Source of the DNA: a virus
DNA: 35,818 nt
IMG/VR virus record: IMGVR_UViG_3300003894_000014
Location: 1 to 35,818 of that record
Reading direction: 5' to 3' (one strand)
The notes beneath the pieces were generated by a model. The model saw only the letters and a program-made list of their open reading frames with translations, made no database searches and was not told the origin of the DNA. Below, piece by piece: positions 9,638-28,800 of this stretch (position 1 is its first letter; every line of letters begins with the position of its first letter). The translations under genes and the position numbers were made by a program.

Positions 9638-11056
9638 TTAAACCATGTAAAGCTCTGCTGTACCGTACTCATCACGTGATATGATACCTGACTCAGATAG
9701 AACATGTGTGTGCTCACCATCGACAGATGTTTTCATATTCTCTCCGTGATTGATACCAGGAACAGAACCTTTCAAGAAATTACGATTACCAAGAGCGATT
9801 AGCTCAACGTTTGGCATACCCACTTCGGTGTTACCCAATGAGGTGAAGAAAGCGTTCCATGATAGCTTACGGCTACCGTCATTCGCTTTCTGAGAAGGAC
9901 GTGTCATGTCATCGAACCATTTACTCCATACAGGAATAATACGAACACCATCAAGCTCATAATACTGGAATGAGGCATTGATACCTTTTGAACGTCCTGA
10001 ACCTTCAACAAGTTCCTGAGCAGTTACTTTGAACTCATCTCTCATGATCTGTCCAAATGTAGTGTTGAACTTACGTCCACCAACAGCAGCAACTTCCATT
10101 ACGCCATCATCATTTGAAAGAATAGAAAGATTCTCAAGAACGTTATCGATAGTACGTTTTGTAAGCTTATTGAAAGGGAATTTCAATGAGCCATCTCCAA
10201 TGTTAAGCAGACCATCTCCTGAACGGATATCACGGCCTTTAAGGTCACGAAGAAGTACTTTTTCGTCAGCACTTACTGTACCTTTACCACGAATTAACTG
10301 GAATTCACGAGCAGCAGCCCATCTTTCCAACATCTTAAGCTCCTGATGAGTAACCCATGCCATTTCATTGTTATGCATTACCCACTGTTTGCCAGTTTTC
10401 ATTTGAGCAGCAGTACCTGAGATAGACCACTTCATTCTCTGAATTGTCAGAGTTGAGCTAGCCCAATCGTCAAATGTATACTTCTCGTATGCTGTCTCGG
10501 ACATTTCGTAGAAGTTGGTGTAACCAAATCCTATTTCCATACCTTCAGCTAGTAGAGTTGGATCAATGTAAGCACTGTCAGAGGATCTGTTAAGTCTTAC
10601 TTTGTATTCCCATACACCTGTCTCAACCTCTTCAGGAGGAGTATCATCAACAACAGTCACAATAGTTTTGTTGTCTGAAAGTTCAAGTGCATCGTATGGA
10701 CTGAACCAGTTAGTATCAATCTTAAGAAGAACAACTTCACCATAGATACCGGGAGTAGCTGTAGTAGCTGCTGTGTATCCTAAGATCACACCTTTGCGAG
10801 AATGCAAAGATTTTACGGGCCACTTAACACGAGTGTTACCAACAACTTTGTACTTGTCAGTATTCATGTCAGCAAATAAACCTTTAGCAGTAAGGTTTCT
10901 GTCAGCAAGCAGAGTTTGGAATGTAGCCACTTTAGGGAACATTGTAACTGCTTGGTTCAAAATTTCTGGCTCAGCTATTGCATACTGAAACAAATGGTTC
11001 TCCATTGTGGTCTCATTTGCAAAGCCTTTTAAAGTACCAGGATTTACTAATCTCAT
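9638..11056 (-). CDS. Major capsid protein (HK97-fold, putative)
   Basis: 472 residues, starting at ATG 11056 after an A-rich leader. It lies after portal and putative scaffold genes, the usual place for the capsid gene. The sequence mixes helices and strands, with no membrane or signal segment. A region near residues 205-330 (DDWASSTLTIQRMKWSIS, then LERWAAAREFQLIRG, then GVMEVAAVGGRKFNTTFGQIM) has the pattern of the long helix and A-domain of HK97-fold coat proteins, and ~470-500 residues is usual for crAss-like capsids. I cannot see a protease gene nearby or a clear cleavage site. The identification rests on position, size and fold-like pattern rather than a diagnostic motif. Confidence 0.8.
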   Translation of the reverse strand: MRLVNPGTLKGFANETTMENHLFQYAIAEPEILNQAVTMFPKVATFQTLLADRNLTAKGLFADMNTDKYKVVGNTRVKWPVKSLHSRKGVILGYTAATTATPGIYGEVVLLKIDTNWFSPYDALELSDNKTIVTVVDDTPPEEVETGVWEYKVRLNRSSDSAYIDPTLLAEGMEIGFGYTNFYEMSETAYEKYTFDDWASSTLTIQRMKWSISGTAAQMKTGKQWVMHNNEMAWVTHQELKMLERWAAAREFQLIRGKGTVSADEKVLLRDLKGRDIRSGDGLLNIGDGSLKFPFNKLTKRTIDNVLENLSILSNDDGVMEVAAVGGRKFNTTFGQIMRDEFKVTAQELVEGSGRSKGINASFQYYELDGVRIIPVWSKWFDDMTRPSQKANDGSRKLSWNAFFTSLGNTEVGMPNVELIALGNRNFLKGSVPGINHGENMKTSVDGEHTHVLSESGIISRDEYGTAELYMV

Positions 11057-11070
11057 TTTAATTATGTTTT

Positions 11071-12087
11071 TTAATTAACTTCTGGAGATGATAGCCTGCT
11101 TAGCTTACTCTTAGCATCAGTTTCCTGTTTAACCCCAGTGAGGTTAATGTCTTTGATGTCGAGTGAGTTCAGAATGGCTTTCTTTGTCTCCTCTTTAGCA
11201 TTAGATAGTAAATTGTCGATCGCTTCTTTCGATCCAAATGCACTTATGATTGTGTCAAAAAGAAAATTGTTTTCATTCATCATCAATCCAAATACGCTTG
11301 TACCTAAATCTTTATTATAGGTAACAATTTGTGAGAATAGTTCACCCATCTGTCCAACCTGTTCGGCTGTATACTTGATACCGTTAACTACTCTCTCTTT
11401 ACCCTTGATAGAATCTACAAAGGTATTGACAGTGTTACGAGAATTTTCCTCAACTTGTTCTGGAGTTACTGGTTTAGGCATTTTATCCTGGTACTCCTGT
11501 TCGTCTTTGTCTCTCCACTGCTTGACCATGTTTTTATACACGATCGGGGATTCTTTCAGCTTTTCTAACTCAGACTGTAGCTGCTCGTCATCCATTCCGT
11601 CAGGACGGTCATCGGTCTTGCCGTATTCATCCTTGAGTTTATACATGGCGTAGACATCATCAGTCATCGTTTGAAAGTCAGGTTTACTGACCTTGCTTGA
11701 ATAGTAATCTTCAGGGTTGCCCCCGTTTGCTATATGTTGATTGAGGCTAATCACTTCTTCGTGCATGCCTCCCATCACTTTCGTTTTGTACGCTGCTTCA
11801 AAAAGGGCTTTTTCCTCTACCCCTTCAGGCAATTTATCAACTTTCAGAGCTTCTGGAACCTCAACCCCAAAAGTCTCCCAATATGCGGCAGGTTTAAATT
11901 TATCTTCACCACCACCAGCACCACCACCGGCACCTGTTACTTCAGTTCCTCCACCTGCGCCTGAACCACCTCCTGCGCCTGCTCCGCCAGCACCTCCTCT
12001 ACCGGCCACATGTGTTCCTTCGGCAGCAGCCATTGCTCCTAGAATGCTGTTGCCCTCTTGATTACGTAAGTCTCTTCCAAATTTCAT
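11071..12087 (-). CDS. Putative scaffolding protein with Gly/Ala-rich linker
   Basis: 338 residues between portal and capsid genes. Residues 1-27 are polar. About 28-60 form a Gly/Ala-rich flexible linker with almost no other residues. The rest is highly charged and helical, rich in Glu, Lys and Asp, with a possible coiled coil at about 165-205 (DDEQLQSELEKLKESPIV). The C-terminus is Lys/Ser-rich (KSKLSRLSSPEVN), a common feature of scaffold tails that bind coat protein. No enzyme motif is present. Scaffold is inferred from position, charge and low complexity; another capsid-assembly or internal head protein is possible. The ATG directly follows the leader AAATCTAATCGAA. Confidence 0.65.
   Translation of the reverse strand: MKFGRDLRNQEGNSILGAMAAAEGTHVAGRGGAGGAGAGGGSGAGGGTEVTGAGGGAGGGEDKFKPAAYWETFGVEVPEALKVDKLPEGVEEKALFEAAYKTKVMGGMHEEVISLNQHIANGGNPEDYYSSKVSKPDFQTMTDDVYAMYKLKDEYGKTDDRPDGMDDEQLQSELEKLKESPIVYKNMVKQWRDKDEQEYQDKMPKPVTPEQVEENSRNTVNTFVDSIKGKERVVNGIKYTAEQVGQMGELFSQIVTYNKDLGTSVFGLMMNENNFLFDTIISAFGSKEAIDNLLSNAKEETKKAILNSLDIKDINLTGVKQETDAKSKLSRLSSPEVN
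11907..12006 (-). repeat. GC-rich Gly/Ala-coding low-complexity repeat
   Basis: About 100 bases of imperfect GGTGCTGGTGGT/GGAGCAGGCGCA units encode the linker of the putative scaffold protein. The coding strand is rich in closely spaced GG pairs, in contrast to the A/T-rich surroundings. Such tracts expand and contract by slippage. Confidence 0.7.
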
Positions 12088-12112
12088 TTCGATTAGATTT
12101 TAAGTGAATAAT
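12088..12112 (-). promoter_or_regulatory. Composite leader joining both recurrent elements, before the putative scaffold gene
   Basis: The minus strand carries ATTCACTTAAAATCTAATCG and then AA directly before the ATG at 12087. It joins the ATTCACT-AAAAT element (near-identical to those at 7938 and 19468) with the AAATCTAATCGAA element (also at 17656 and, slightly changed, at 9619). This copy is the most complete and is the best candidate for the ancestral form. Confidence 0.45.
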
Positions 12113-14658
12113 TAGTCTTTTATATGTTCTTTGCCTGACCCTTGAGATCTGGCTTTTGTTTTCTCTACATCAAGTTTCTTCATACTCTCCTTATGCGATT
12201 TCTCATTAGCATCAGCGTTTAAGAGAATGTTTGCCTGGTTAGCAAGACCATCCATTCTTAGTTGAGCAGTGCGGATCTTCTCATCAACTGAATTAGCTCT
12301 GCTATCTTCTGCAAGATATGCCATTTCCACATCAGTCTCAGCTTGGATCTCAGTAGCCTTAATCTGAGCATCGATACCCATCTCTTCCCTCTTAAGCTTA
12401 GCATCAATGTAAGTCTTAAGTTTTTCCATCTCTAGTTTACCCTGTTCTATTCTTAACTTAGCTTCCTCAAAACGACCCTTCTGAGCCTGTAGCTGCATAT
12501 CGATTTTACCTTTCATCTCAATAAGCAACTTCTGAGCTTCTGCTTTTTGCTGTTCAACACTCATAGCATTGTCCTGTGCAATCTTAGCCATCTTCTCAGA
12601 GTAGTGAGATATCTTCTCCTCCATCTCTTTTAAGTTGTTGGTATCAAATATCGATATCAACTGTGAAAGGGTAATCTCCCTGTTTGAACGAGCCTGTGCC
12701 GCTAACTGCCGGATAGTAGTAAGCTTGTTATTATCATCAGTACTATCACTTAAGAATAAACTAAAGAACCTGTCAACAGCAACGTCTGGATGTATCTTAA
12801 AGAATTTCTTAGCATTAGAATCTGTCATGTATGTACCATCCTTACCACCTTTCCATGCATATCTCGCACAATTAATGTAACGTGTAAGCGCATGCTGTAA
12901 TGTGATATCATGTTCATAGTATATGATAAACGTGATAAGGTTAGAGGCATTAATAGCCATCTCAAATGTACCTACCTGGTCGTTAGGATCTGTTCTACCA
13001 ACAGACTCTCTGTTTACACCTGTGATATCTGAGGCCATCTCATCGAGGTCCTTCAGGATTTCTGTCAAATAACCTAATGCGGGTGATACAGTATTGTCAT
13101 ATGTTTGGAATTGGTTGAATGATGCTGCTTTACCATTTTTCCATGAGTCTATCCATGCGATACCACGTTTAAAGTCCATTAACCACTCTCCATCATCCAT
13201 ATCAGCTTTCTGAGCTACATCCATCACAATACCCTTAACACCTGCCATAGCAAGCATAAGCTCTCTGTGATAGTGAATAATAGAACTTAGTTCTTGGATA
13301 TCACGTGTCTCCCATATGAGACTGTAAGGACGGTTAGCAGGATCATTGAATGTTTCTCCAATAATCGGACCCTGTACATAGGACGGTTCATCATCAAATC
13401 TACGAAGTTGTAGAGGTGATTTACGAATGTTAACATAATATGTATCGTTTAACATCACACCCTCCCATAAGTCTTGCACGTTCTTGCTTATTACTGTTTC
13501 ACCTTTTTTGGGCTTATAACCTGCAGATACTACATGACGGAAGTAATCGCCTGTATGTTTATTAGGTGTCTCCTTATAACTGACATCTCTGTTTGCTTTC
13601 CAGAAACCCATAGTAACCTTAACATTATTACCACCAGTAGTACTGTAACTATCATCTAAGAATACAGCACCATTGTTAGGTGTAGGAACAACGGCCCCAT
13701 TCTGAGTAGTCTGAGCTCCTGATGCACGAACTATATGTTCTAGCTCTTCAGGTTTAAGATGCTTGCCATATCTAAGAATAACCTCACTGACACTCATCTC
13801 GATATCAAATGCCATAGCAGCACAATCCTGCACATAAAACTTACTACTTTCACTGGAGAACCTTACATTCCTGACAGGAATAACCTCAAATACAGGATTC
13901 AACATTCCTGGCTCCCAGTTAACATAGTAGAATTCCTTACCGGTAATAACACGGTTACGCATGTTGATTACCTTTTTACGCTTGATTTCTTTCTTTACGA
14001 TAGCTTCATTAAGACCTCCCTGGAAACCTTGTTCAATGATATCACTATCATCATAGGTCATATGTCGGTCAGCTTCGTCAATATCTTTTTGAGTAAGCAC
14101 GTTGTCGATATCGATATTCTTAATCGCATGATCGAACTTTGATTCGAGAACTGGCAACTGCATCTGTAATTGCTCTAATTCGGCAGCCTCAGCTTGCGTC
14201 TGAGGACTTCTCTGCACCAACTGGGCCAATCTATTCTTAGCAGCCATTAAGCTCTTCTGGACGGTTATTTGGGCTTGGTTAACAGCTTCTATTCTCTTAC
14301 GTGCTATATTAAATACTCTCTCTGCTCTTCTGAGGTTTCTCTCCTCAATGCTTCTTTTGTCTGATGCATAGATCCTTGATTTGACTTCACGTTGAGCATC
14401 TTGGCTAACGAGCTTGTTAACTTTTGATGTCACCATAGGAATCCATCTCATTTTTGCCGGAAGGATATTCCCATCTATTTCTGTCAAATAGCTAAACTCT
14501 TTATTGTCGATCTCACCATGATATATCTTGTAACATTTAGTATCCTTTTTTACATCACGTGCTGTAGTACCGACAAGCTTCATAGCATCGTCAAACATCT
14601 TATGCTTAACAATATCGTCAGGTTCACCGACTTTAGTTGTTGGAAGTTTCTTTGTCAT
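12112..14658 (-). CDS. Portal protein
   Basis: 848 residues, close to the usual length of crAss-like portals. The portal forms the dodecameric ring at one head vertex through which DNA is packaged and ejected. Predicted features: a charged coiled-coil insertion at about residues 103-175 (RRAERVFNIARKRIEAVNQAQ onwards), a beta/alpha core, the segment MASDITGVNRESVGRTD near residue 555 that is typical of portal core helices, and a long C-terminal Lys/Glu/Gln-rich helix from about 690 to the end, likely the barrel or crown. It starts with ATG at 14658 inside the end of TerL (ATGA overlap, four bases), so the two genes are translationally coupled. Order TerL then portal is standard. Confidence 0.88.
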   Translation of the reverse strand: MTKKLPTTKVGEPDDIVKHKMFDDAMKLVGTTARDVKKDTKCYKIYHGEIDNKEFSYLTEIDGNILPAKMRWIPMVTSKVNKLVSQDAQREVKSRIYASDKRSIEERNLRRAERVFNIARKRIEAVNQAQITVQKSLMAAKNRLAQLVQRSPQTQAEAAELEQLQMQLPVLESKFDHAIKNIDIDNVLTQKDIDEADRHMTYDDSDIIEQGFQGGLNEAIVKKEIKRKKVINMRNRVITGKEFYYVNWEPGMLNPVFEVIPVRNVRFSSESSKFYVQDCAAMAFDIEMSVSEVILRYGKHLKPEELEHIVRASGAQTTQNGAVVPTPNNGAVFLDDSYSTTGGNNVKVTMGFWKANRDVSYKETPNKHTGDYFRHVVSAGYKPKKGETVISKNVQDLWEGVMLNDTYYVNIRKSPLQLRRFDDEPSYVQGPIIGETFNDPANRPYSLIWETRDIQELSSIIHYHRELMLAMAGVKGIVMDVAQKADMDDGEWLMDFKRGIAWIDSWKNGKAASFNQFQTYDNTVSPALGYLTEILKDLDEMASDITGVNRESVGRTDPNDQVGTFEMAINASNLITFIIYYEHDITLQHALTRYINCARYAWKGGKDGTYMTDSNAKKFFKIHPDVAVDRFFSLFLSDSTDDNNKLTTIRQLAAQARSNREITLSQLISIFDTNNLKEMEEKISHYSEKMAKIAQDNAMSVEQQKAEAQKLLIEMKGKIDMQLQAQKGRFEEAKLRIEQGKLEMEKLKTYIDAKLKREEMGIDAQIKATEIQAETDVEMAYLAEDSRANSVDEKIRTAQLRMDGLANQANILLNADANEKSHKESMKKLDVEKTKARSQGSGKEHIKD

Positions 14659-16598
14659 GTCGCTATAATTATACCGTTTGATAATCTTTTGTAACGAGGC
14701 AACGGACTAACACGTTGAGCCTTTTGGGGCTGAGTATCTATCTTACGTTTATGTTGAGCCATCTCATACCCATTAAGATACGCTAATGATGCCGCTATTG
14801 TTTCGTCACAGTTATAATTTTTATCGAGCTTGAACTTAATAAATTTACTAATAAGGTCAACGCTTCTAAGTCTATGGTAATTCTTTGCTATATAATCTGA
14901 AAGTAATGATAACCAGTGAGTCTTTGTACTAGGATCTACACCATACTTATTCGTCATTGAACTGTTTTGGATCCATGCTGACAACAACATTTCGGGCCTC
15001 TCTTTCAGTAAAAAGTTAAAGTTGTGGTTATCGTACCAGTCGAAGATACGGATATTTGACCATTCGATTAGGTTTTTTGCTCTGTAGTACATGCAGAGCT
15101 TTGCACTTGCTTCATATGCTGCCTCTGTACCTCCTTCTGCCAGAGATGGTCGCCAATGCAAACGTGCTACAAATATATCATAACTTGTGCCCGCATGCAA
15201 GAAAGTTTTGTAAATATGTGTAGATAATTTTGAATCCGAGGTGTTTGCTTCGTCTCTGTCATAACTGTCTGTGCCGCCTGCATAAAGCTCTTCAGGCACA
15301 ACTCCGTCCACTGTCTCAGGTCTTTCAACAAGTTCAAAAATTCCTTCATCATTTGGGATAAACTCTACACCGGTAATGATTTTTCTGCCATTATGCTCAT
15401 CATATAACCACTCAAGGTCTCCTCTTTCGGTGATTTGCATCTCCTTTGTTTTGCGAATCATAGCCTTGATCTTATTCAGCTTATGAGCATTCGCTTTACC
15501 AAAATAACCACCAGTACGTGTAAGGAAAGCTTCATCAGGAATGATAGGTTCCTGAGTAATGGATGTGTATAGCTTATCATCAGTATCAGCATCTTCACGC
15601 TCTTTTTTAATCTGATCGATACTTTCTTGCTTAAGGTAGTTACCCTCACTATCAACAAGCTTATACTTCCACTTAGGACAGAACCAACCCATTTTAATTG
15701 TGCCTGGCTCTATATCACTATCCCATTCACTTGCATCAAATGGAAGAATATCAAATTCATTAGGAGTATAAATAATCTCTTGGAGCTCTTCAGCACCCTT
15801 TTCCATTTCACCACCAGTACCAACAAAGATTACAAATCCTGTCTTGATACCCTCAGAGTATAGAGATGGCTTAATGAACTTATACACTCCACGTACTCCA
15901 GGAAACACTCCTGCTTCCTCCATAAGCACAAAAGACGGACTCAATGAAGAGACCGCCTGTAAGCTATTCTTAGCAGTGATGGCAAAGATTTCGGACATGT
16001 ATCCTGCCTCCTGCGTAATCTTTTTACCGTCTTTCACAATGACCCTATCATAAGCGGCCCTCATGTATTCGGTTCTGTTTGGTTGTCTGTGCTTGTAGAA
16101 CTCAGTAGGAACAAGTGAGTTTAATCCTCTGCGAACAAAACCCATTGTAGTATTGGTATACTTTTCGAGTCCTGATACGATAACGCTCTGTGATGCAGGA
16201 TGGAATGAGAACTCCTCTCCAATTAGACATGCATGCTTTTCACTGAATCCTGTTTGTCTCCCTTTGATTACCCCTACATTCTTGTCCTGTTTACGTGCTT
16301 GTTCTACTACATGGAAATATTCATGGTCCATTTCCAAGAAACGAGGGGCAATAAGCTCTTTACGTTTTGTCTTGTGGTTTACACCACGTATCTTCCAAAA
16401 ATTGAGATAAAAGTAATGTGAACCTGTAATTCTGTGACCTCCTACAGAGTATCCATCATTCATAATGATATCTCTCTGTTCATACCACCACGACTCATAA
16501 TACGAGCTATCCTCTGGCGGTATGCCGTCACTCACTACAGGAGCAAAAAGGGACGTGTTAACCCACGCCCCTTCCGGTGTTTTTACAGTATTACTCAC
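14655..16598 (-). CDS. terL: Terminase large subunit (packaging ATPase and nuclease)
   Basis: 647 residues. The ATPase domain shows a Walker A-like P-loop GRQTGFSEK at about 113-121, a Walker B segment FVLMEEAG (about 223-230, with the acidic pair EE) and the coupling motif VGTGGE at about 259-264. The RNase H-like nuclease domain shows an acidic first motif GGTDSYDRDE (about 441-450) and a late acidic residue in NCDETIAASLA (about 598). It pumps DNA into the prohead through the portal and cuts the concatemer. The frame begins with GTG at 16598, which overlaps the upstream gene by eight bases; no ATG lies close enough to be a better start. Motifs and position beside the portal make this one of the firmest calls. 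Confidence 0.95.
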   Translation of the reverse strand: MSNTVKTPEGAWVNTSLFAPVVSDGIPPEDSSYYESWWYEQRDIIMNDGYSVGGHRITGSHYFYLNFWKIRGVNHKTKRKELIAPRFLEMDHEYFHVVEQARKQDKNVGVIKGRQTGFSEKHACLIGEEFSFHPASQSVIVSGLEKYTNTTMGFVRRGLNSLVPTEFYKHRQPNRTEYMRAAYDRVIVKDGKKITQEAGYMSEIFAITAKNSLQAVSSLSPSFVLMEEAGVFPGVRGVYKFIKPSLYSEGIKTGFVIFVGTGGEMEKGAEELQEIIYTPNEFDILPFDASEWDSDIEPGTIKMGWFCPKWKYKLVDSEGNYLKQESIDQIKKEREDADTDDKLYTSITQEPIIPDEAFLTRTGGYFGKANAHKLNKIKAMIRKTKEMQITERGDLEWLYDEHNGRKIITGVEFIPNDEGIFELVERPETVDGVVPEELYAGGTDSYDRDEANTSDSKLSTHIYKTFLHAGTSYDIFVARLHWRPSLAEGGTEAAYEASAKLCMYYRAKNLIEWSNIRIFDWYDNHNFNFLLKERPEMLLSAWIQNSSMTNKYGVDPSTKTHWLSLLSDYIAKNYHRLRSVDLISKFIKFKLDKNYNCDETIAASLAYLNGYEMAQHKRKIDTQPQKAQRVSPLPRYKRLSNGIIIAT

Positions 16599-17655: not shown

Positions 17656-17668
17656 TTCGATTAGATTT
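17656..17668 (-). promoter_or_regulatory. Start-proximal element AAATCTAATCGAA (copy 1)
   Basis: This is identical over 13 bases to the leader of the putative scaffold gene at 12088-12100. It begins within the stop codon of the upstream gene and lies six bases before the ATG at 17649. It may be a translation leader or part of a promoter. Confidence 0.45.
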
Positions 17669-18269
17669 ATAAATTAAATAATATACTCACTTTCACTTGG
17701 CTTCCTAATATTCCATAGGATGCGCTGTAAGCTCTTTTCTTCTTATTGATCACCATTCCGTCCACCCAAAACTCAAAGTGCTGCGTAGAACCTCCTACAC
17801 CACCTCCAATGAAAAATAAATTCTTTAATGGAGGAGGCTTTATCACCTCATAAGTATGAGTGTAGATTTCAAATACCGGATACGACCGACTGACTATCTT
17901 ATTTCGATAAACAGTATCGATTTGATATATCCTACCATTTGTATCATCCAATATCCATTTGTTATAAGGCCTAACAACATTATAGTCATGATGTGCAAGA
18001 TACCACTGCATAATTGCATTAGAATCAACTAAAGCTGCGTAAACAGCATTAGAATCAACATCTGCAGGAACTTCTATAGGATCCCCCTTTACATAAACAG
18101 TTGGACCAGGTACCGGCACCTCTTTCTCTATCTCTATTTCAATAGTGTCTTGAGGCAGGTACTTGACAATTACTTCAGGTTCTGGAGGCTCATTACATGA
18201 GTCCTGAATAAAGATAACTGTAATAGCTATCATAAGTAGTCCGAGCAATATCTTGTTAGTTAACGTCAT
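17667..18269 (-). CDS. Membrane-anchored Pro-rich protein, possible spanin-like or envelope protein
   Basis: 200 residues. Residues about 5-22 are a hydrophobic anchor (ILLGLLMIAITVIFI) followed by a Cys, but the residues before it (IQDSC) fit a lipobox poorly. Next comes a Pro/Glu/Val-rich extended region (EPEVIVKYLPQDTIEIEIEKEVPVPGPTV). The C-terminal ~55 residues are Gly/aromatic-rich with alternating hydrophobicity and end in ILFNL, as in beta-barrel hairpins of outer-membrane proteins. The start overlaps the stop of the CHAP gene (ATGA), so it is coupled to the endolysin. A role bridging the envelope during lysis is plausible, but no family is recognised. The gene is clear; the function is inferred from position and topology. 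Confidence 0.65.
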   Translation of the reverse strand: MTLTNKILLGLLMIAITVIFIQDSCNEPPEPEVIVKYLPQDTIEIEIEKEVPVPGPTVYVKGDPIEVPADVDSNAVYAALVDSNAIMQWYLAHHDYNVVRPYNKWILDDTNGRIYQIDTVYRNKIVSRSYPVFEIYTHTYEVIKPPPLKNLFFIGGGVGGSTQHFEFWVDGMVINKKKRAYSASYGILGSQVKVSILFNL

Positions 18270-18799
18270 AAGAATGAGCTTATTTTATAAATAGTACCTT
18301 TCGGTCTATACTTTCGGTATACGCCCTGACCTTCACGAGATCCTGCGTCATTGGTGTTACCCTCTACGGTAATGAAGTAATCCTCTGTCTCTCCATCATA
18401 GAAACCGACATGAGCGATACGCTTCTTGCTAGAAAAATAAATCCCGATGACATCACCGGGCTGTGGAGGACACTTAAAACCTTCCCCCCTTGTGTATATG
18501 ACATTATCATCAGGAAAATAACTGGGTGCATATGCAGGATACTTCATTATTAGCTCATGACCAAACTGGACATAATTCCAATATATGAATGCAGCACACC
18601 ATGGATAACCGTCTCCAAGATCAGTAGTGGCTAAGTACTCCTCAACCATTTCACCGTCATTGTTGCCGGTTAACTCTACAACTCCTATCTGTGCTCTATA
18701 CTGTTTTTGAAGAGAGTCTCTTAGATCACACTGACCAGAAACACTAAGAAAAACAAATAAGCAAGCAATAAGACCAATGCTATTTTTGATTTGTGCCAT
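18266..18799 (-). CDS. Secreted CHAP-type peptidoglycan hydrolase (endolysin)
   Basis: 177 residues. Residues 1-22 form a signal peptide (Lys5, then a hydrophobic core IGLIACLFVFLSV), so it may be exported by the host Sec system rather than relying only on the holin. The CHAP domain shows the catalytic Cys in GYPWCAAFIYWNY (Cys68), the catalytic His in RIAHVGFY (His130) and an acidic/amide residue in TVEGNTND (Glu146/Asn148). It would cut amide or peptide bonds of the host cell wall at lysis. The ATG at 18799 lies inside the holin gene: the first 79 bases are shared, with the signal peptide encoded in the frame next to the last holin helix. The end overlaps the next gene by four bases. Confidence 0.88.
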   Translation of the reverse strand: MAQIKNSIGLIACLFVFLSVSGQCDLRDSLQKQYRAQIGVVELTGNNDGEMVEEYLATTDLGDGYPWCAAFIYWNYVQFGHELIMKYPAYAPSYFPDDNVIYTRGEGFKCPPQPGDVIGIYFSSKKRIAHVGFYDGETEDYFITVEGNTNDAGSREGQGVYRKYRPKGTIYKISSFL

Positions 18800-19113
18800 T
18801 TTGATAACGAACCTTGTTGGTTAGTATACGATTGATTCATTGACTGTCCAAGTGTATTATCGAGGAAGTTATAGACATTAGGAAATGTAATTTTTATAAA
18901 CAACCATGCAATACCTGACAGTATGCTAAGAGCCATAATGGAATAGATAATCTTCATGAATACAACTCCATCATACTCACCCGCTGTAGAATCGAATCCA
19001 GACCATCTCATTAAAGCAGGCATGTACCTCCATAACAATAACCCTATAGGAATAGTTACGAATTCATTCCACTTCACTAAGAAAGCCCGGATTCTTTTTA
19101 GCTTAAAGCCCAT
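18721..19113 (-). CDS. Three-helix membrane protein, likely holin
   Basis: 130 residues with three predicted membrane helices at about 19-36 (VTIPIGLLLWRYMPALMRW), 50-75 (VVFMKIIYSIMALSILSGIAW) and 109-130 (KIALVLLLAYLFFLVFLVSVI), and basic residues at the N-terminus (KLKRIRAFLVK). Size, topology and direct overlap with an endolysin gene suggest a class I-like holin that forms the membrane lesion at lysis. The last helix runs to the C-terminal Ile with no charged tail. Its final 79 bases are shared with the endolysin's signal peptide. The ATG follows the TAG of the previous gene by one base. Holin is inferred from topology and context because holins have no conserved motif. Confidence 0.8.
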   Translation of the reverse strand: MGFKLKRIRAFLVKWNEFVTIPIGLLLWRYMPALMRWSGFDSTAGEYDGVVFMKIIYSIMALSILSGIAWLFIKITFPNVYNFLDNTLGQSMNQSYTNQQGSLSKWHKSKIALVLLLAYLFFLVFLVSVI

Positions 19114-19114
19114 A

Positions 19115-19459
19115 CTACACTCCTACTGCTGTTGGATCTTCTACAGTCCATGGACCGATTGCGTCAGCTTCTCCTGGAATTCTAACGCTGAATCTCTCAG
19201 GGCTATCTGCGCTAAGAGTCACAATAAGGTTATAACAGATATCCTGGTTAGTAGTCTGAGCGAATGTAGTACCGCTGCCTTTTGTAGTTTCAAGAGCTTC
19301 TCTTTGCCCTTGTGGAGTAAATGCAAACTCATGTTTTGTGTCCCATGCTCCGAAGTTGTCATACTGAGTTTCATCCTTGTAAAGGAATCCACGCACGCTT
19401 GTCTGGTTTACATCCTCTATCACAAGGAAGTTACCTGACGGGTTAAATAATCCTTTCAT
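19115..19459 (-). CDS. Small protein paralogous to the 58-residue protein at 21265-21441, function unknown
   Basis: 114 residues from ATG 19459 (MKGLFNPSGNFLVIEDVNQ). An open frame continues upstream to 19537 but would overlap the previous gene; the chosen start lies 14 bases after that gene's stop and follows the recurrent ATTCACTAATAAAAT element. The first ~36 residues match the 58-residue protein: G-L-x-N-x-(S/T)-GNFLV near the start and an acidic Tyr-Asn segment (KDETQYDNFG versus ESEEKYNAG). The remainder is acidic and beta-rich (NLIVTLSADSPERFSVRIPG) with no known motif. It ends in TAG. A small structural or lysis-associated protein is possible; the duplication shows the fold is used twice. 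Confidence 0.7.
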   Translation of the reverse strand: MKGLFNPSGNFLVIEDVNQTSVRGFLYKDETQYDNFGAWDTKHEFAFTPQGQREALETTKGSGTTFAQTTNQDICYNLIVTLSADSPERFSVRIPGEADAIGPWTVEDPTAVGV

Positions 19460-19482: not shown

Positions 19483-20106
19483 ATTCAGTTTCTTTTTGAT
19501 ATACTTTCCAAACAACATAAACGTAATAGGATTCCAAAGATATAAAATAATTGTTTTGGAGGCAAAAGACCTTCCACCGAAGTAAGGTTCTAACCTTATA
19601 AAGTGAGGTGTCTTTTCAGCCCATATACATGTACATCCCTCTCCGTGAATGTTGTTAGTAAGGTTGTTAACATACCCTAGATAACAATCATCCTCTGCTT
19701 TTAGACCGCAAAGGAATAATTTATTACCCTCGACTGTTAGTATTTTCTTTGCTATCCATTCACCCTCATTATAAACATAAAGGTAAATATCAAAGTACCC
19801 GTACTGATCCCACTTGGGTTGCCATACGAGTCTTGCTGAAAACTCATGATGATTAAAGCCTGCGAAACCGTAAAGTTTATTCCATCCGGTTAACGGCCTA
19901 CCCTCATTATCTTTGTCAAGATCCGATTTGTTATACCAATCTGATTTTGGTATATAAGCATAACGCTGCATCTCATTTCCAAAACGGAACATGAATGTAC
20001 GTCTTAAAGATTCTGCATTTATTGGTCCAACAAATAATCCGGATAGCATAAAGCGTATCTTATTATTGCTGAAATGTCTCCCTTTTTTTATTATATACTT
20101 GGCCAT
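19474..20106 (-). CDS. Beta-rich protein of unknown function
   Basis: 210 residues, rich in Trp, Tyr and Phe with alternating strand patterns (ARLVWQPKWDQYGYFDIYLYVYNEGEW), suggesting a beta-sandwich. The N-terminus is basic (KYIIKKGRHF) and there is no signal peptide. The C-terminus is hydrophobic then basic (LYLWNPITFMLFGKYIKKKLNIH), which may be a membrane-associated segment. Two Cys pairs occur near residue 135-160 (LFLCGLKAEDDC, EGCTC). The start at 20106 overlaps the upstream gene by 16 bases. I do not recognise a family; a carbohydrate-binding or envelope role would fit the aromatic content but is speculative. Confidence 0.7.
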   Translation of the reverse strand: MAKYIIKKGRHFSNNKIRFMLSGLFVGPINAESLRRTFMFRFGNEMQRYAYIPKSDWYNKSDLDKDNEGRPLTGWNKLYGFAGFNHHEFSARLVWQPKWDQYGYFDIYLYVYNEGEWIAKKILTVEGNKLFLCGLKAEDDCYLGYVNNLTNNIHGEGCTCIWAEKTPHFIRLEPYFGGRSFASKTIILYLWNPITFMLFGKYIKKKLNIH

Positions 20107-20471
20107 AATGAGTGTACTATTTGACTAATTATAGCGAGAGCACCTCCTATACCAATGCTTATCCATGCAGCTCTCTTATTGGCTTCCTTTTTAGCGTCAG
20201 CCTTAGCTTCTGTTTTAATAACGGTTATCTCGGTGTTAACGGTATCAATCCGATCATCGAGTAACTTAACCTTTTCATCGTACTCTTTAGTGAGTTTTGA
20301 GATTGCCTCCTTTAAATCGTCTTTTGCTTCATGGATAGTCTGTATTAAATACTCTCTATCTTCTTGACGGAGGCCACGTAATTCTTTTGCTTCTCCCACG
20401 AGCATCTCAAGCATGTATAAGACATGTACACTGTGGTTATTCCAATCACCCTTTTGATCAGTCTCGTTCAT
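20091..20471 (-). CDS. Coiled-coil protein with C-terminal membrane helix (haemolysin XhlA-like layout)
   Basis: 126 residues. A charged coiled coil spans about 27-98 (KELRGLRQEDREYL to EAKADAKKEANKR) and a single membrane helix about 101-121 (AAWISIGIGGALAIISQIV). This arrangement is seen in XhlA-type phage lysis proteins and in some holin-like or spanin-like proteins. It sits four genes from the holin/endolysin pair. No motif settles the role, so a lysis accessory protein or membrane-anchored structural protein is proposed. It starts at ATG 20471, nine bases after the cupin gene's stop. Confidence 0.7.
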   Translation of the reverse strand: MNETDQKGDWNNHSVHVLYMLEMLVGEAKELRGLRQEDREYLIQTIHEAKDDLKEAISKLTKEYDEKVKLLDDRIDTVNTEITVIKTEAKADAKKEANKRAAWISIGIGGALAIISQIVHSLWPSI

Positions 20472-20903: not shown

Positions 20904-21275
20904 TTAATCCTTTAACACTTTATATTTGATTATAGTCTCATTGACGATTACCCTATTTTCGAGCTGATTATGATTTGTTGCCTGGTCTTTTTTTAGTTCT
21001 TTATGCTCTTCAATATAGGTTTGCAGCCTCCTCTTAGTTGTTCCTAAGTCTGTCTCTAAGGCTTGCTTTTCCAATTTATATATTAACTTGAGTTCGATTA
21101 AAGCGCTCTCTAAGCTGTCTGACTTTGCTTTCTCTGCGTTAAAACGGTCTACCCCGACATATCTATCATCTAAGTACAAAAGTGTCAGAAAACCGATTAA
21201 AATAAGTATCCAACGAAAGTTGTTTTTAGCGATCTCGCTGAAGTCCCATATATGTTTCTTTTTTTCAGTGTCCAT
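20904..21275 (-). CDS. Membrane-anchored coiled-coil protein, inner-membrane spanin candidate
   Basis: 123 residues. A basic N-terminus (EKKKHIW) is followed by one membrane helix at about 21-36 (RWILILIGFLTLLYL) and then a long charged coiled coil to the C-terminus (about 45-115, Glu/Lys/Leu-rich). This is the layout of Rz-type inner-membrane spanins, which link to an outer-membrane partner and fuse the two membranes after the wall is cut. The start at 21275 overlaps the 58-residue gene by 11 bases. The candidate is topology-based; the partner (a small outer-membrane lipoprotein) is not certain, though the protein at 17667-18269 may be worth comparing. Confidence 0.7.
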   Translation of the reverse strand: MDTEKKKHIWDFSEIAKNNFRWILILIGFLTLLYLDDRYVGVDRFNAEKAKSDSLESALIELKLIYKLEKQALETDLGTTKRRLQTYIEEHKELKKDQATNHNQLENRVIVNETIIKYKVLKD

Positions 21276-21441
21276 AGTCCATCTGGTAGCGGATCTGTTG
21301 ACCCCTTACTGCTTTTTCAAACAGTGGATCTAACCCAGCATTGTACTTCTCTTCGCTTTCGTAAATGAACACAGTTACGTTAGTCCAATTAACTTGGTCC
21401 ACTACTAGGAAGTTTCCGGTTGAATTTACTAATCCTGCCAT
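21265..21441 (-). CDS. 58-residue protein, paralogue of the 114-residue protein at 19115-19459
   Basis: A short gene of 58 codons plus TGA starting at ATG 21441. It begins MAGLVNSTGNFLVVDQVN and ends QIRYQMDYGH. Its first ~36 residues align without gaps to the N-terminus of the 114-residue protein (shared GL-x-N-x-x-GNFLV, then VN-x-T, then an acidic patch with Tyr-Asn). It lies in an otherwise unexplained 180-base gap between the GH16 gene and the spanin candidate, overlaps the latter by 11 bases, and has an A/T-rich leader (TAATATCTAAAACT) related to the AAATCTAATC element. The similarity to a neighbour supports it as a real gene. Function is unknown. Confidence 0.8.
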   Translation of the reverse strand: MAGLVNSTGNFLVVDQVNWTNVTVFIYESEEKYNAGLDPLFEKAVRGQQIRYQMDYGH

Positions 21442-21459: not shown

Positions 21460-22230
21460 TTATTCAATTATAAATAATTCTAAGTACTTGATATCCATGT
21501 AAGCATCGTCATCAAGTTCGGATGTCGGTCCAGAACCACAATAAGTTCCTTTCACAATATCAAATATTACATGATTAGGTCCACTAGGGACTCCCCTTTT
21601 CATGGTTCGTACCACAGTGTTATTAATCTTGTAGATCACTTTATACGGAGTTAGTTCCACTTCGTACAAGTTGTATTTTTCTGTTGGTCTGAAATCTTTG
21701 TACTGTCGTCCATTAGATAGAGTTGACTTCTTACCATTAATATTTTCATAATCATATCCCCAATGATGGGTAACATTAACTTTGTCTGTCCATTCTCCAC
21801 AATGTTCGAAGATATCAATTTCTGGCATACCAAACTTACCCATAAGCCAAAAAGCTGACCAAGCACCCTCAATATTAGGAGTTTTTATCATTGCTCTAAC
21901 TGTTCCGGTCTTTATTGTGAAGTTCGAGTATAGATAAGCTTCCTTTGAATGCTTGTGTCCATGCATTCTTAATCTGATTCTGTCGTCCTCTATGATAATA
22001 TTATTTTTTACACCATGATTATCATCCCAAGGCAAGTGCCATCTGAACATTGGATCGTAACCCCATTGATAAACTCTATCCCATGCTCTACCTTTCCAAG
22101 GTGGATTACCTAAAGTTATGTTAGATGCGTCAATGTAATATCTTTTCCCAAGAGGGGGTGTAGGTTCTTGATTTTTCTTGAATCCCCTAATACGGAAAAT
22201 GAATTGTTCTATTTTACTTCTTATATCCAT
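21460..22230 (-). CDS. GH16 family glycoside hydrolase (beta-glucanase/galactanase type)
   Basis: 256 residues. The GH16 signature E-x-D-x-x-E is present as EIDIFE in KFGMPEIDIFEHCGE: Glu137 would be the nucleophile, Asp139 the assisting residue and Glu142 the acid/base. Before it, VRAMIKTPNIEGAWSAFWLMG is the typical strand-plus-Trp lead-in of the jelly-roll; aromatic residues elsewhere (WGYDPMFRWHLPWDD) could line the sugar cleft. The family cleaves internal beta-1,3/1,4-glucan, agarose, porphyran or carrageenan bonds; which one cannot be told. The N-terminus is basic and shows no clear signal peptide. It sits one small gene after the giant fibre, so a role as a depolymerase that clears capsule or matrix on entry or release is plausible. 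It overlaps the upstream gene by ten bases. Confidence 0.88.
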   Translation of the reverse strand: MDIRSKIEQFIFRIRGFKKNQEPTPPLGKRYYIDASNITLGNPPWKGRAWDRVYQWGYDPMFRWHLPWDDNHGVKNNIIIEDDRIRLRMHGHKHSKEAYLYSNFTIKTGTVRAMIKTPNIEGAWSAFWLMGKFGMPEIDIFEHCGEWTDKVNVTHHWGYDYENINGKKSTLSNGRQYKDFRPTEKYNLYEVELTPYKVIYKINNTVVRTMKRGVPSGPNHVIFDIVKGTYCGSGPTSELDDDAYMDIKYLELFIIE

Positions 22231-22508
22231 TGCCCATTTATTTTTGTTTTCTTTGGCTTATGCCTTTCTTTATCTTCCTTTGATTGCTTTGCTATAATCT
22301 TCTCACATGTTTCTATTAATTCTTTGCCCTCTTTCCCTTTCTTTTCTTTTTCAAGTTCTAATCCACAATTAAATACATCAACTATAAATTTGTTAAATAT
22401 CGAACTCTTTTTCTTAGCCTCTTCATTTTTATAGATATGAACTAGTGCCATTCCTCCAGTAACAGACTTGACTATTAAATAGTTTTTATTTTTGTTATTC
22501 ATTCCCAT
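22221..22508 (-). CDS. Lysine-rich small protein of unknown function
   Basis: 95 residues. The first ~30 residues are beta-like (NYLIVKSVTGGMALVHIYK); the C-terminal half is strongly Lys/Glu-rich and helical. The ATG at 22508 overlaps the fibre's stop by one base (TAATG), so it is coupled to the fibre gene. A second in-frame ATG lies two codons later. No known domain. Position suggests a fibre-associated factor (chaperone or adaptor), which is speculative. Confidence 0.6.
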   Translation of the reverse strand: MGMNNKNKNYLIVKSVTGGMALVHIYKNEEAKKKSSIFNKFIVDVFNCGLELEKEKKGKEGKELIETCEKIIAKQSKEDKERHKPKKTKINGQWI

Positions 22509-22864
22509 TATATTGAAATATTATTAGCTTGTAAAATATTTTCTAGCTCAGCTACTCTTTCTTTAAGCAGTTCAACTTCGCTGTCAACTTCTTTAAGTCC
22601 TTCTACAATATATGTATGCATACCTGAGGCATTAGCATCATAGTATCCAGTTTCTTGATTTAACTTTACCATCTCTGGAAATACTTGCATTAATTCTTGA
22701 GCTATGTACCCTTTAAGAACTCTTCCATCTAATTCATACCCTGTAATATCTGAGTATGTTTGATTGAAACTGTATGTTACTGGTCTTAATTGGCGTATCT
22801 TTTCCATTACACTTTCTCCGTCTGGAACAAGGTTCTGAATATTAGTCTTAAGTCTTTCATCAGA
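22508..22864 (-). other. Peptidase S74 intramolecular chaperone domain of the fibre
   Basis: The last 118 residues begin with SDERLK. Ser4288 and Lys4293 form the expected Ser-Lys dyad, with self-cleavage just before the Ser as in endosialidase-type fibres. The domain then shows LRPVTYSFN, KGYIAQELMQVFPE and a C-terminal coiled coil (EVDSEVELLKERVAELENIL), which helps trimerise the fibre before it is cut off. Confidence 0.88.
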
Positions 22865-25800
22865 ATAATCAGTAAACAACTCATATCCGTTAGAGGCAGG
22901 CTCACCATTAACCTTTATAGCATACGTGGCATCAGGAGCAACTTTAAACCCTACATTTCCTCCAAAGTAACTACGAGAGGTTCCAGCTGTATATATAGAA
23001 TAGTTTGCACTTCCAGCTGTCATTTCTTGAATATACAGACCAAAGTTATTTGTAATGGTTCCAGTATTTGATGGATTCCAAGCAGACAAACCATAACTAT
23101 TTGTAACTGTATGACCGGTACCAACATCGTTTCTTGTCCACACACCATATAACCCTGTAGTTGTTCCACCGTTTCCAAGTGCCTTATTTAGAATCATTAC
23201 ACCATGACCAAATCCGCTTGTTCCAGAAGTATGTGACATATTTACAGCAACTCTTAATGCTTGCTTTCTTCCAGTAGCTGCCGCACCTGTAAATCCACTA
23301 GCTACGTTTAATGCTGCTTCTGAAGCTCCTGTGGCATCTGAAGATGGTCGGTATATATAGGCTTGGTCATTAGCTGAAGGCTGTATTCCAACACCAATAC
23401 TTTCATCTACTTTTAAATCTTTCTTAATATTAACAAGTCCTGCACTATCAATTGAAAATCTTGTTATATCTCCTGTAAGCAATGATATATAGTCCTCTAA
23501 GAAGTAAGCAGAATCCCAAGATCCGCCACTATCTTGCCCTGTTATATAAACACCTCCACTAGATGAATTAGCAGTATCAGCTCCATGAATTCTCAATGCA
23601 TTATATTCATCAGGTGTATCCATTCGTATATAAGAACCACTGCTTCCTATTCCTAAATTAAGACCATCCCATGTAAGGTATTGCTCAGCTTCAAGAGTAT
23701 TAGCGGTAGCAGAACCAGTGATAATTCTATTATTAGCATTATTATTGATTGTTGTGGTTGTTCCAGTTTCAAGTAAATCTTTTGTAACTCCATTGATACG
23801 GATGTATGCTGAAGTAGTTGTTGTCCACATATCCCCGTCTACAGGTGAGGTTGGAGCTGTACCATGAGCAAAGTTTAGACCAGCACCAGATGTGGAAGAA
23901 GCAGCTGTTCTTATAGGTACAGCGGTAGACATTTGTATTGGAAAATTATATGTTACTACATCAGATGTACCATCTATATAAAAAGCTGTTGACACACCTG
24001 TACTAAATTTTACATCTTTACCAATGATACTTAAGTCCATCCATGAGGATGTGTCAGCATTATACGATTGGATTACACCCTCACCTGCCGATATTTTAGT
24101 TATAACAAAACTGCCAGAAGAAGGAGTGGAAACATCTCCCTGTGCCACTATTCCTCCAGCATACAGGTCAGCTAAACCATTTTCATTCATATAGACAGCT
24201 GTGATATTATCGTCACCTAATGTAACAGTGTTAGAACCTTTTCCTACAGCACCAGTGCCTATAACTATTTGATTAGTTTGTCCTGAAGCAGCTGCTCTAG
24301 TCTGTGCGCCTATAAATACTGAATCGTAAGATGTTTCATTTGGATAACCATTAGCTATTTTATCTCCAGCTGTACTACCAAGACCTACATTATAGTCACC
24401 AGTTGTTACTTGCGAAAGAGCACCTTGACCTATAGCTGTATTTTTTATACCTGTACTAGAACTACCAGCATATCTTCCAACTGCTACTAAATCTGATGAA
24501 CCATCTGCATTCTGACCAGCAAATACTCCAATAGCGACCATTGAGGATGCTATATTAACTGTTTGAGCTGCTCCTCTACCTATAGCTGTAATATCGGTAA
24601 GAGTTCCTGTTGCATCCCTTAAGGCGTTTTCTCCTAACACTATAAGATTGGTTCCAGCTGTTACCTCTTTAGCTGACCAATCTCCCATTATTATATTATA
24701 ATTACCTGTAACAAGGTCTTCTCCTGCAAGATTTCCTAAGAAAATATTGCCTTGTCCAGAAGTTACTGAGTTACCAGCATTATATCCTATAAGTACATTC
24801 TGGTTAGAACCATCATCAGCTAATCCACAACCTTGTCCTATAATAACTGAAGTATCTGTAAAAGTTAAATTACCATTTACTGTTAACGTTCCTGTAAAGG
24901 TATCTGTAGTATTAAGAAGATACTGACTATGAGTATGATTGTCTAAAGAATATCTACCATCCAGATCAACAGTCAAGTCTGCTAAAGCACCTGTTCTCCC
25001 AAGGGTCAACACACCTGTTCCTGTAGCAAAACTTACTGAGTCAACGTAATTATCTGTATCTGTAGTAAAATCTAAGTTTGCTTGCATGTATGCTTCAAGA
25101 ACTGAAACATCCATCCTCTTAATTGCACCACCATCATTTACAAGTAATTCATCCGTTGATATTAATCCTGATGTAAGAGCTGTTTGACCTGTTATACCTG
25201 CTACTGTTAAAACTGTTGCCCCATCACCTGTTGAGGTAACATGACCTGTATGATTAGGATGTGAATACTCAGATGATGTTATAGCCTCTCTAATTCCTTG
25301 CTCAGTAACAAGGGTATTATCTGAACCAGTTACTCCAACACTTGTAGTTATACTATTAACAGTAGTTCCACTACTGAGTGTTATATCACTCACTGTTAAT
25401 GCAGCATTGGCAGCACTTAACTCATTATCTCTTATAGTCAACTGAGTGCCTTGGTCTACATTAAAGTTTATTTCACCTTTGGAAGCATCAGTAGCTGTAG
25501 TATATACTGTTATATCAGCATAATTAGAATAACCCCCTCCATAATATCCTTGAAACGATAATAAAGCAATACTATCAGATGTAGTTAAATTTGCAGGAGT
25601 ATCTGCTGTTCCAAAACTCCTATAAAACCATAACTGATTCCCTATACCAGAAGTTGATGTATGAGTATACATCTTAAATGAAGCTACGCCAACATTCTCT
25701 CCAGTACTTCCTTTTAGGCTTAAAATAGAGTATGTTCCGTCTTCAAAAGTTAATGTTCCCGACCCACCTAAAGTATCAGAGTCATCAAATACAGCAACTT

Positions 25801-28800
25801 GGTATTGAGCACCACTACCGTCAAGATAGTTATGAGTATGAGTAGTAGGACTATAATAACTTCCATGTTGACCGTCTAGTAAGTCTGCATCTAATCCACT
25901 TCCTGAACCATCATTTCCTTCATGCCATATTTTTGTCCAACTGCTCCAAACACCTGATGATTTACCTCTGAAATAAGTTTCTGTTCCAGCCTGTCCTACT
26001 ATGAGTTGCGCACCGTATTGAGTACCGTTGTCGTAGTTCATATGCATTACAGCACCATTTACGGGATAATTAGAAGCTCCACTACCAACCCAATAATGAC
26101 CCGTTTTGGTGATTGTGTCCAAGTCTATTCTACCATCTAATGTTGCATATAGGTTTTTACCATATACAATTCTTTCAGCTTGAATCCCATCAACCATATC
26201 TGCATCCAATCCACTACCAGAGCCGTCATTACCCGCATGCCATACCAAGTTACCTTCAACGTTTATATTTCCTGCACTTGCTCTTGTTATGGAAGTATCA
26301 GTAGAAGCTACATTTATTGCTCCTGAGAACGTAGCATCTCCTCCAGTACTGATTGATAATGCTAACAATCCATTAGCCCCACTATATATCAGATTACCTG
26401 GGTTTGAATCCACGTAGAACCTTAAATCTTGGGTAGAGGTTATACTAGCGTGACTATCTCCAACAGAAAACCCCATCTCTTGCTTCTCTGCAACAGCAGG
26501 AGTACCATCTTCAACAATCCTAATAGTTGGAACGTCGTATGCCTGTACAACTAACGTGTCATAAGCAGCGTGGCTGTAATCATTACCTCCGTTCTTAATA
26601 TAAAGAGGTCGATAAGTATTTGACCAAGAAGGGGTATTGATTGTTACTTCATTCCCAAAAGTAGCTGTTCCTGATTGGAAGTCGTGATTACCTGAACTAT
26701 CTATCTCATACCTTAAGTTCCTTCCTGATGTGTAAAAGTGAATAGGATTAGCTGTTGCTGTATAAAGTGTAAGAACTTCTTGAGAACGTAGCCCAAACTC
26801 TTCTTTACCTGTTCCTGAGAACAATGTAGCACCATAACCAATAAAACCTTTTGTAGTAGTTCCACTATCTGAGTAAACGGTATAACCTCCTACAGAATGA
26901 GTACTCTGCATTTCTGATATCTTATTAGCAGAGCCTACATTAATTGTAACAGTATTTCCAAAGTCTGCTGTACCACTTTGAAAGTCGTGGTTTCCTGATG
27001 AGTCTATTAGGTATCGTTTTGTACCATATGTACCTTGTGTCGCTCCAGTTGTGAATTGTAATTCCCCGCTATTATCAGACCATATCTGAGCAGCTCCAGA
27101 TGTCCCTGCGATCTCTATAAAGGCATTACCGCTACTATTAGCAAATCGTGCAGCCATTTGATTAGCGCTGCCAATCTTGTTTAATAACAACTGACCTGTT
27201 AAGGTTAATGTACCAGTAAACGTATCTGTAGTGTTTAATAAGTACTGAGAGTGGGTGTGATTGGTACCATCCTGAACATCTGAAAGTAAAGCTGAGTGGG
27301 TTGGATCGGTTGGAGGATCATGTATCACGACCTTACCAAAAGTAGCTATACCTGTAGAATCTATAACTAAAGAGTTGCTTGTACTTCCTGGGCCAATAGC
27401 TATGTTATCTGTACCTGACGGATTCCATATCCATTGTACTGCTGTACCGCCTGCATTTCTAAATTTTATCTCATTAGATCCACCATAAAACTGAATGTCA
27501 TTGTAAATATGAGCATCTAAGGCAGCCCAATCAACCGTACTTAAATTACTGTTTCCAGCGTGCCATACTTCATTTGAATCTACATATAAATCTGTATAAA
27601 ATATTGCTTCGTCTGTATCTCCCGTAATCTGGAATTTCATGGAACTGTTATTTATAAACTTCAACCCATCAGATGAATTATCTGATTGAATATTCCATGT
27701 TCTTACTGCATTTGTTAAATACAGATTTTTATATAAAGTAAGATTGTAGTTTCCTAAATCAACATTCGCTGTTGCTCCTGTGTATGGGACATACTGTGAG
27801 TGGGTGTGATTATTTAAAGTAGCAGGGTCAGTCCATACTAAATCTCCATCAGCATCACTAACTGCTATGTAACCATCAGCAGCTCCCGTTGTGAATTTAC
27901 CTGAAGTTCCAGTAATCTTACCAGCTACTGTAGCAAAATCTGATGCATAAATACTTGTGTTAGTAACACTATCAATACCATCAAACCCTTTTAAGGTTAT
28001 CCTTGCTTCATCAATGTAACCCCCTTGAATTACAGCATAGTAGTTTGTTACAGAATGATAACTATCCCTTAATCTAAGAGAGTGTGTATAATTACTACCA
28101 TACATAACAGTGTAATCGTTACCAGCACCATCATCAGGGTATGATTCAATATATGTTTTATTACCGTATTGGTTTTCTACTAATAATAGGTTTGCTATTA
28201 AAGAATTATCTCCCAAATCTACATTAGCTGTAGCTCCTGTATATGGAACATAACCTGTACTTAATTTGCCCCAAACTGCACCTGATGTTGGTAGGTGGGT
28301 GTCGTCATCTGTCAGGGTTGTTTCTATGGTATTTACAGAACTACCTTCCTTAAGCTTAAAGAATGATGAGAATATTCTAAACTCGTCTAAAGAAGAATCA
28401 TGCTTGAATACACTTCCTGCAACATCATAGTTATACAATGCGAAGTCATTACCAGAGTCTTTTCCAAGGTAATATTTATTGGTAGTGTTATCTGTAAATA
28501 CAATTAGGGATTCTTCTGTTCCTAATCCATCTCGCCCCGATCTAATCCATAAATAGGAGTTATCAATATTATTTATATAAACAAATTTATCACTAAAAAC
28601 AGCATCTGTACTGGAGAAGTGAAGCATTCTATTAGAAGACTCATCTCTTAAAGACAATCCTATACTGTAGCTGCCTCCATAGAGTATGTTCTCGTTATTG
28701 GTATTTTTGTATAGTAAAGTTTTGTAAGAACCCAGTGTGTCTTTTTGTTGGATGACCTGATTGTTGTCTAACTTAATATTACTAGTGGACATTATTAAAT

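Follow-up and report, generated by a model that had tools for sequence, protein, structure and literature searches.

In lambda, the gene for an outer-membrane lipoprotein, Rz1, lies inside the i-spanin gene Rz, and overlapped pairs of the P2 type are also known. In phiX174, where lysis gene E lies in D, the hydrophobic helix of the lysis protein was created in the second frame by T shifted to codon position 2 (PMC8227390). Two described endolysins, Lys44 of Oenococcus phage fOg44 and that of Campylobacter Fletchervirus F352, are exported by Sec with a cleavable signal peptide and have a holin as activator (PMC7692668), and the endolysin that we describe here appears to be exported in the same way.

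Our locus, a lysis cassette, very probably uses the DNA of the last helix of a putative holin twice: read in the -1 frame, the same bases encode the entire Sec signal peptide of a CHAP endolysin. It is encoded on the minus strand of IMG/VR record IMGVR_UViG_3300003894_000014, all 35,818 nucleotides of which were analysed (the window). The holin-like and CHAP open reading frames (ORFs) overlap by 79 nt, at exactly 18721-18799, in -1 phase, with endolysin codon positions 1/2/3 falling on holin positions 3/1/2; ORF coordinates, conservation in relatives and synonymous constraint in both frames mark these bases as dual-coding. The endolysin ATG takes its A from the end of the K105 codon of the holin and its TG from the W106 codon, giving a tetramer, ATGG (18796..18799), in which the start codon shares the Trp106 codon TGG. 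The 26 endolysin codons of the overlap spell MAQIKNSIGLIACLFVFLSVSGQCDL, in which a basic n-region precedes a hydrophobic core and a cut site, SG↓Q (↓, cleavage), and the same bases give the last holin helix, WHKSKIALVLLLAYLFFLVFLVSVI. The original prediction had named a 79-base overlap encoding a holin helix and an endolysin signal peptide, and both peptides are present in the window sequence; the helix that it quoted, KIALVLLLAYLFFLVFLV, is there, but the AlphaFold helix (residues 105-129) is slightly longer.

Relatives were gathered by scans of IMG/VR contigs and GTDB genomes, yielding 184 usable loci, 141 of them non-redundant; the named ones are nearly all Bacteroidota. A comparison of homologous loci had been suggested with the prediction; both hydrophobic segments are conserved in homologues, and a long overlap is kept in 101 of the 141. 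These long overlaps span 64-130 nt, every length equals 1 mod 3, giving a single phase, and lengths of 79 nt (32 loci) and 82 nt (45 loci) together make up 77 of the 101. The overlap persists while CHAP identity to the window drops to 26-29%. In 13 of the 141 relatives the genes abut or overlap by 4-10 nt, with the signal peptide still present, and in the remaining 27 an adjacent transmembrane (TM) ORF or a clear start was absent by the survey criteria, some of these being fused. The earlier claim that the overlap fixes holin and endolysin together is right for the most part, but the 13 show that the overlap can be lost, and in one clade the two genes are fused. The double use of the overlap is real, old and widely conserved in Bacteroidota viruses.

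Among the 101 overlap loci the start tetramer is ATGG in 86 and GTGG or TTGG in 3, and in 86 the start is carried by the Trp codon of a holin motif, W-[EQ]-[KR]-x-K; counts of ATG, like those of hydrophobic -1 frames, are inflated because the choice of starts in the survey favoured ATG with a hydrophobic region behind it. An A precedes the start TGG in 86 of 89 cases, compared with 124 of 436 other Trp codons in the same proteins. When the Trp-codon test was repeated without start choice, A preceded the last Trp in 106 of 139 loci (redundant loci included). The earlier suggestion that the overlap could tie translation of the two genes gains no support here: the start precedes the holin stop by ~76 nt, beyond the reach of simple stop-start reinitiation, and -1 slippery heptamers are not in excess. 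Ribosomes might instead enter the endolysin frame by a programmed -1 frameshift in the holin frame, which would make a holin-endolysin fusion and leave the ATG incidental, as the endolysin is offset by -1 from the holin and single-ORF fusions of just these parts occur naturally. Yet such a shift would have no use for an ATG, which is kept at a synonymous site much more often than background would give, and -1 slippery heptamers (X XXY YYZ) occur in 22 of the 101 loci against a null expectation of 22.3 (sd 4.1). No conserved slippery site, the hallmark of a programmed frameshift gene, was found across these loci, and with such heptamers not enriched we consider frameshifting very unlikely.

The two hydrophobic readings go beyond what codon composition supplies. 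A T that opens a holin codon falls on the second position of an endolysin codon, and codons starting with T make up 48% of TM3 against 29% of TM1 and TM2, in agreement with the earlier explanation of dual hydrophobic coding by T-rich codons. When the window holin was resampled synonymously, the -1 frame gained a stop in 86% of draws, and 0 of the ~55 stop-free draws (400 total) was as hydrophobic as the real -1 frame. Across loci, an average of 41% of synonymous shuffles of the overlap brought in a stop, and the hydrophobic peak of the -1 frame (KD) had an observed mean of 2.76, compared with 1.97 in stop-free shuffles (p=3e-18). The -1 frame of TM3 is free of stops in 100% of overlap loci and as hydrophobic as a signal peptide in 90%, a TM3 figure biased upward since loci entered the set via a hydrophobic endolysin start, an entry step failed by only 6 of 141. 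The -1 frames of TM1 and TM2 of the same proteins are stop-free in 80% and signal-peptide-like in 14%, a difference that fits the predicted pair of functions in two hydrophobic frames. In the +1 frame, a signal-peptide-like reading fails in all helices of the surveyed proteins. Chance from codon composition is ruled out by the synonymous shuffles and the TM1/TM2 controls. A mild hydrophobicity is inherent in the alternate frames of membrane helices and makes such an origin plausible, but the observed frame is tuned well beyond this level.

Constraint was measured separately, in 39 independent pairs, as the share of identical residues with different codons inside and outside the overlap, a test that does not depend on hydrophobicity. 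Synonymous differences in the endolysin frame fall from 45.1% outside the overlap to 10.4% inside (Wilcoxon p=7e-12), and those in the holin frame from 39.1% to 27.8% (p=1e-5), so the synonymous-site check proposed for each frame with the prediction returned reduced divergence in both. A weaker holin-frame effect is expected, since a silent holin change hits endolysin codon position 1, where it often swaps one hydrophobic residue for another. Divergence by base position is 0.14/0.08/0.28 inside the overlap and 0.26/0.15/0.45 in the holin upstream of it. With both frames constrained, the two genes bear the mark of a functional overlapping pair. It is scarcely credible that only one frame functions, the second hydrophobic reading being a T-rich by-product and the endolysin starting further down: stop-free synonymous TM3 shuffles are mildly hydrophobic, as that reading would have it, but the observed frames exceed them, carry no stop in any locus and are not matched by the control helices. 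A later endolysin start is also ruled out in the window, where no in-frame ATG, GTG or TTG follows the start before codon 51, so that the signal peptide cannot be trimmed away.

The endolysin (18266..18799, minus strand, 177 amino acids) matches Pfam CHAP (PF05257, 27.1 bits against a cut-off of 26, E=6e-6) and a PHROG endolysin family (E=1e-13). Its catalytic domain, placed by Pfam and alignment, covers residues 62-148 (WCAAF...EGNTNDAG; 18356..18616, minus strand), and C68 and H130 are invariant in the alignment of relatives. The signal peptide (18734..18799, minus strand) reads MAQIKNSIGLIACLFVFLSVSG followed by Q, with cleavage predicted before Gln23 from the sequence and a survey of cleavage sites; its anatomy, MAQIKNS-IGLIACLFVFL-SVSG↓Q, has the n-region, h-region and small-x-small motif of a Sec signal. 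Among the 101 loci with a long overlap, 87% have an n-region with a net positive charge. Sites of the type A/G/S-x-A/G/S↓Q occur in 37 of the 101 and in 35 of these 37 place the cut within the shared bases, whereas Gln follows a small-x-small motif in 56 of 1592 background cases (3.5%). These data bear on an alternative that we regard as improbable, namely that the N-terminus is a signal-anchor-release (SAR) domain, held in the membrane until depolarisation instead of being cleaved. SAR endolysins and pinholins are frequent in phages of Gram-negative hosts (PMC8879335, PMC6139136), but a SAR domain would be an uncleaved helix of weak hydrophobicity, whereas here the h-region is short and strongly hydrophobic and small-x-small↓Q sites come after it much more often than in the background; the criteria used in PMC7692668 take these as signs of cleavage. 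Some loci have a lipobox in place of the Q-type site, and lipoprotein-like signals were noted in L005, L104, L154, L180, L181 and L185 (for example, LLLCSC, LLANC and FAYSC), which suggests that a minority of these phages may have membrane-tethered endolysins.

The putative holin (18721..19113, minus strand, 130 amino acids, TAA stop at 18723-18721) was modelled with AlphaFold on 62 homologues (mean pLDDT 81), which predicts three TM helices at residues 16-37, 49-76 and 105-129; the third (18727..18801, minus strand) has a basic N-flank with a W-x-K-x-K motif. Homologues were identified by position, an iterated HMM search having been dropped after it drifted to unrelated membrane proteins. Counts of charged residues (N-tail, 3.9 K+R; TM1-TM2 loop, 0.08 K+R and 1.9 D+E; TM2-TM3 loop, 2.0 K+R) indicate a predicted topology with the N-tail in, the TM1-TM2 loop out and the TM2-TM3 loop in, that is, N-in and C-out. 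TM3 would then run from in to out, the same orientation as a signal peptide. Class I holins such as lambda S also have three helices, in the reverse orientation (N-out, C-in).

Searches of Pfam, PHROGs and NCBIfam gave no family match for this protein, and fold searches returned only an uncharacterised phage protein (E=2) and nothing significant in the PDB. The holin assignment comes from position, size and topology, as the protein is small, falls within the range of 1-4 TM helices and is a conserved neighbour of the endolysin, and not from any database family; from these predicted features, the name is good but unproven. A less probable though serious alternative is that the three-helix protein regulates or partners the endolysin, as an antiholin, inhibitor or membrane anchor, and that the 20091-20471 protein may be the holin or trigger. 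The missing family match, a second small membrane protein of XhlA-like layout 1 kb upstream in the window and the fusion to the enzyme in one clade would all suit a partner, but size, three helices and a place before the endolysin and u-spanin-like gene are those of the holin of a complete cassette.

Taking the protein as a holin, we propose the following mechanism. Lysine codons before TM3 would yield basic residues in both frames, and T-rich codons hydrophobic residues in both, so that the same bases would encode two N-in, C-out topogenic elements, an anchor ending the holin and a cleavable export signal opening the endolysin. Endolysin synthesis would be initiated independently at the embedded ATGG, and the product would be exported by Sec and cleaved by signal peptidase I. 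For Campylobacter phage F352, the holin was shown in E. coli to be the activator or timer of a signal-peptide endolysin (PMC7692668), and we infer the same role for the putative holin. By this analogy, it would time or trigger lysis through membrane disturbance, not by releasing the enzyme, and a spanin would carry out the final step. The arrangement is likely to have arisen by N-terminal extension of the endolysin into TM3, where the alternate frame was already rather hydrophobic. With both frames membrane-inserting, a single indel inside the overlap could yield a working fusion, as one clade shows.

In 14 loci, 7 found first and 7 from a targeted scan, a continuous ORF runs through TM1, TM2, TM3, cut site and CHAP (L161, L105, L110, L120, L184, L187, L198, L207, L208, L209, L211, L212, L214 and L219). 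They come from many independent contigs with GC contents of about 28-63%, and the fused proteins form one clade in the CHAP-domain tree (support 96). Their N-terminal part resembles the separate holins, as judged by eye; at the L161 junction, RIFFAFLFALVFLSSGFAQ is followed directly by ESQLR, with the predicted cut between the two and TM3 doubling as the signal peptide, and the AlphaFold model of L207 has helices at 2-32, 37-69 and 90-114 and then a CHAP-like alpha/beta part. A shift between the two hydrophobic frames would be the simplest route to such a fusion. Abutting genes were tried as the ancestral state and rejected, since CHAP trees, unrooted or rooted on CHAPs without a signal peptide, show the overlap on the main branches besides the fused clade, with basal forks not resolved; from the outgroup-rooted tree, the overlap is probably ancestral and the fusion derived.

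The CHAP ORF extends 142-176 codons beyond the normal CHAP end in 8 of the 14 fused loci, and another frame of the extension encodes a protein laid out like a unimolecular spanin, with a lipobox at its N-terminus and a helix at its C-terminus. These u-spanin-like genes lie at L161:2985-3461, L184:3054-3527, L187:3063-3572, L105:2898-3422, L110:2982-3506, L120:2880-3386, L209:3297-3806 and L219:3339-3854. When they were shuffled synonymously, the CHAP frame stayed open with a probability of <=0.03 per locus (0 of 2000 draws in four loci), values that are not to be multiplied as the eight loci are related. This is evidence that the open CHAP frame over the u-spanin-like gene is maintained, which does not imply that the extension is translated. 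Of the 101 unfused overlap loci, 37 also have a u-spanin-like gene where the endolysin ends or shortly beyond, which agrees with a published statement that the spanins of Bacteroidetes phages are all unimolecular (PMC12596118).

We tentatively offer a broader reading, to which we give somewhat less than even confidence. The overlap would be a two-frame topogenic segment, selected for N-in/C-out insertion in either frame, through which holin and endolysin are interchangeable between two genes and one polypeptide; the fused holin-signal-CHAP polyprotein would be cut by signal peptidase, and with the nested u-spanin-like gene the whole programme would occupy one ORF and one gene in another of its frames. 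If so, these fused members pack lysis of inner membrane, wall and outer membrane into the same DNA.

In the window itself, the gene after the endolysin (17667..18269, minus strand, 200 amino acids) overlaps it by 4 nt (ATGA), and its product has an N-terminal hydrophobic helix and a proline-rich stretch. We found no C-terminal helix and no family match in this product, which is not a recognisable spanin; standing in place of the u-spanin-like gene of relatives, it is possibly an atypical one. All further genes described here are on the minus strand. At 20091-20471, a 126-amino-acid protein with a coiled coil and a C-terminal helix, an XhlA-like layout and a weak PHROG hemolysin match (E=0.21) is a second candidate lysis or holin-related gene product. 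Short proteins at 19115-19456 and 21265-21441 have a common G-L-x-N-x-[ST]-G-N-F-L-V-[IV]-[ED]-x-V-N-like motif and are probable paralogues flanking the lysis region. A GH16 glycosyl hydrolase (21460-22230; Pfam E=7e-16), possibly a polysaccharide depolymerase, adjoins a tail-fibre-like gene, and a 4405-amino-acid protein rich in GIGT-type repeats (22508-35725, more than one third of the record) is probably a giant tail fibre. Terminase, portal and major head protein (9638-16598) match phage families. The best terminase matches are crAss-like and other Bacteroidota phages at ~27% identity, which makes the record a very distant member or relative.

If our reading is correct, this is a rare case of one DNA segment holding two hydrophobic membrane-targeting signals in two frames that have persisted despite large divergence, and this in ordinary double-stranded DNA phages and prophages, in which room in the genome is not at an extreme premium. 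It points to a route by which a signal peptide may be born, with the enzyme growing upstream into another frame of the membrane helix encoded next to it, and to a way for two genes to fuse without loss of function. It also provides a candidate lysis cassette for Bacteroidota phages, consisting of a putative holin, an exported CHAP endolysin and a u-spanin-like protein. Automatic annotation of these phages may trim the overlap and so miss the signal peptide or the helix, and with the 14 natural fusions the model can be tested directly.

In the literature covered, with subscription journals thinly represented, we found no description of shared bases for a holin helix and the signal peptide of an endolysin, or of a natural fusion through them. 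For Lys44 and F352, the available part of PMC7692668 describes no overlap of signal peptide and holin, and by the same text the F352 lysis genes are not in one cassette, unlike those of the window. The gene downstream of the endolysin in 37 of the 101 relatives has the N-terminal lipobox and C-terminal helix of unimolecular spanins of the phage T1 gp11 type; the fused clade differs from that type in nesting the gene in another frame of the endolysin ORF, and the downstream gene of the window does not fit it. In phiX174, D is not a membrane protein, whereas both readings of the window overlap are membrane-targeting. Lambda Rz/Rz1 and the P2-type pairs have in common with our locus two lysis genes whose localisation signals lie on shared DNA in different frames, but here a TM helix and a signal peptide come from the same bases and the pair is a holin-like protein and an endolysin. 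Overlapping lysis genes as such are already known, from Rz/Rz1 and from E in D; it is the version that joins a holin helix to an endolysin signal peptide that we call new.
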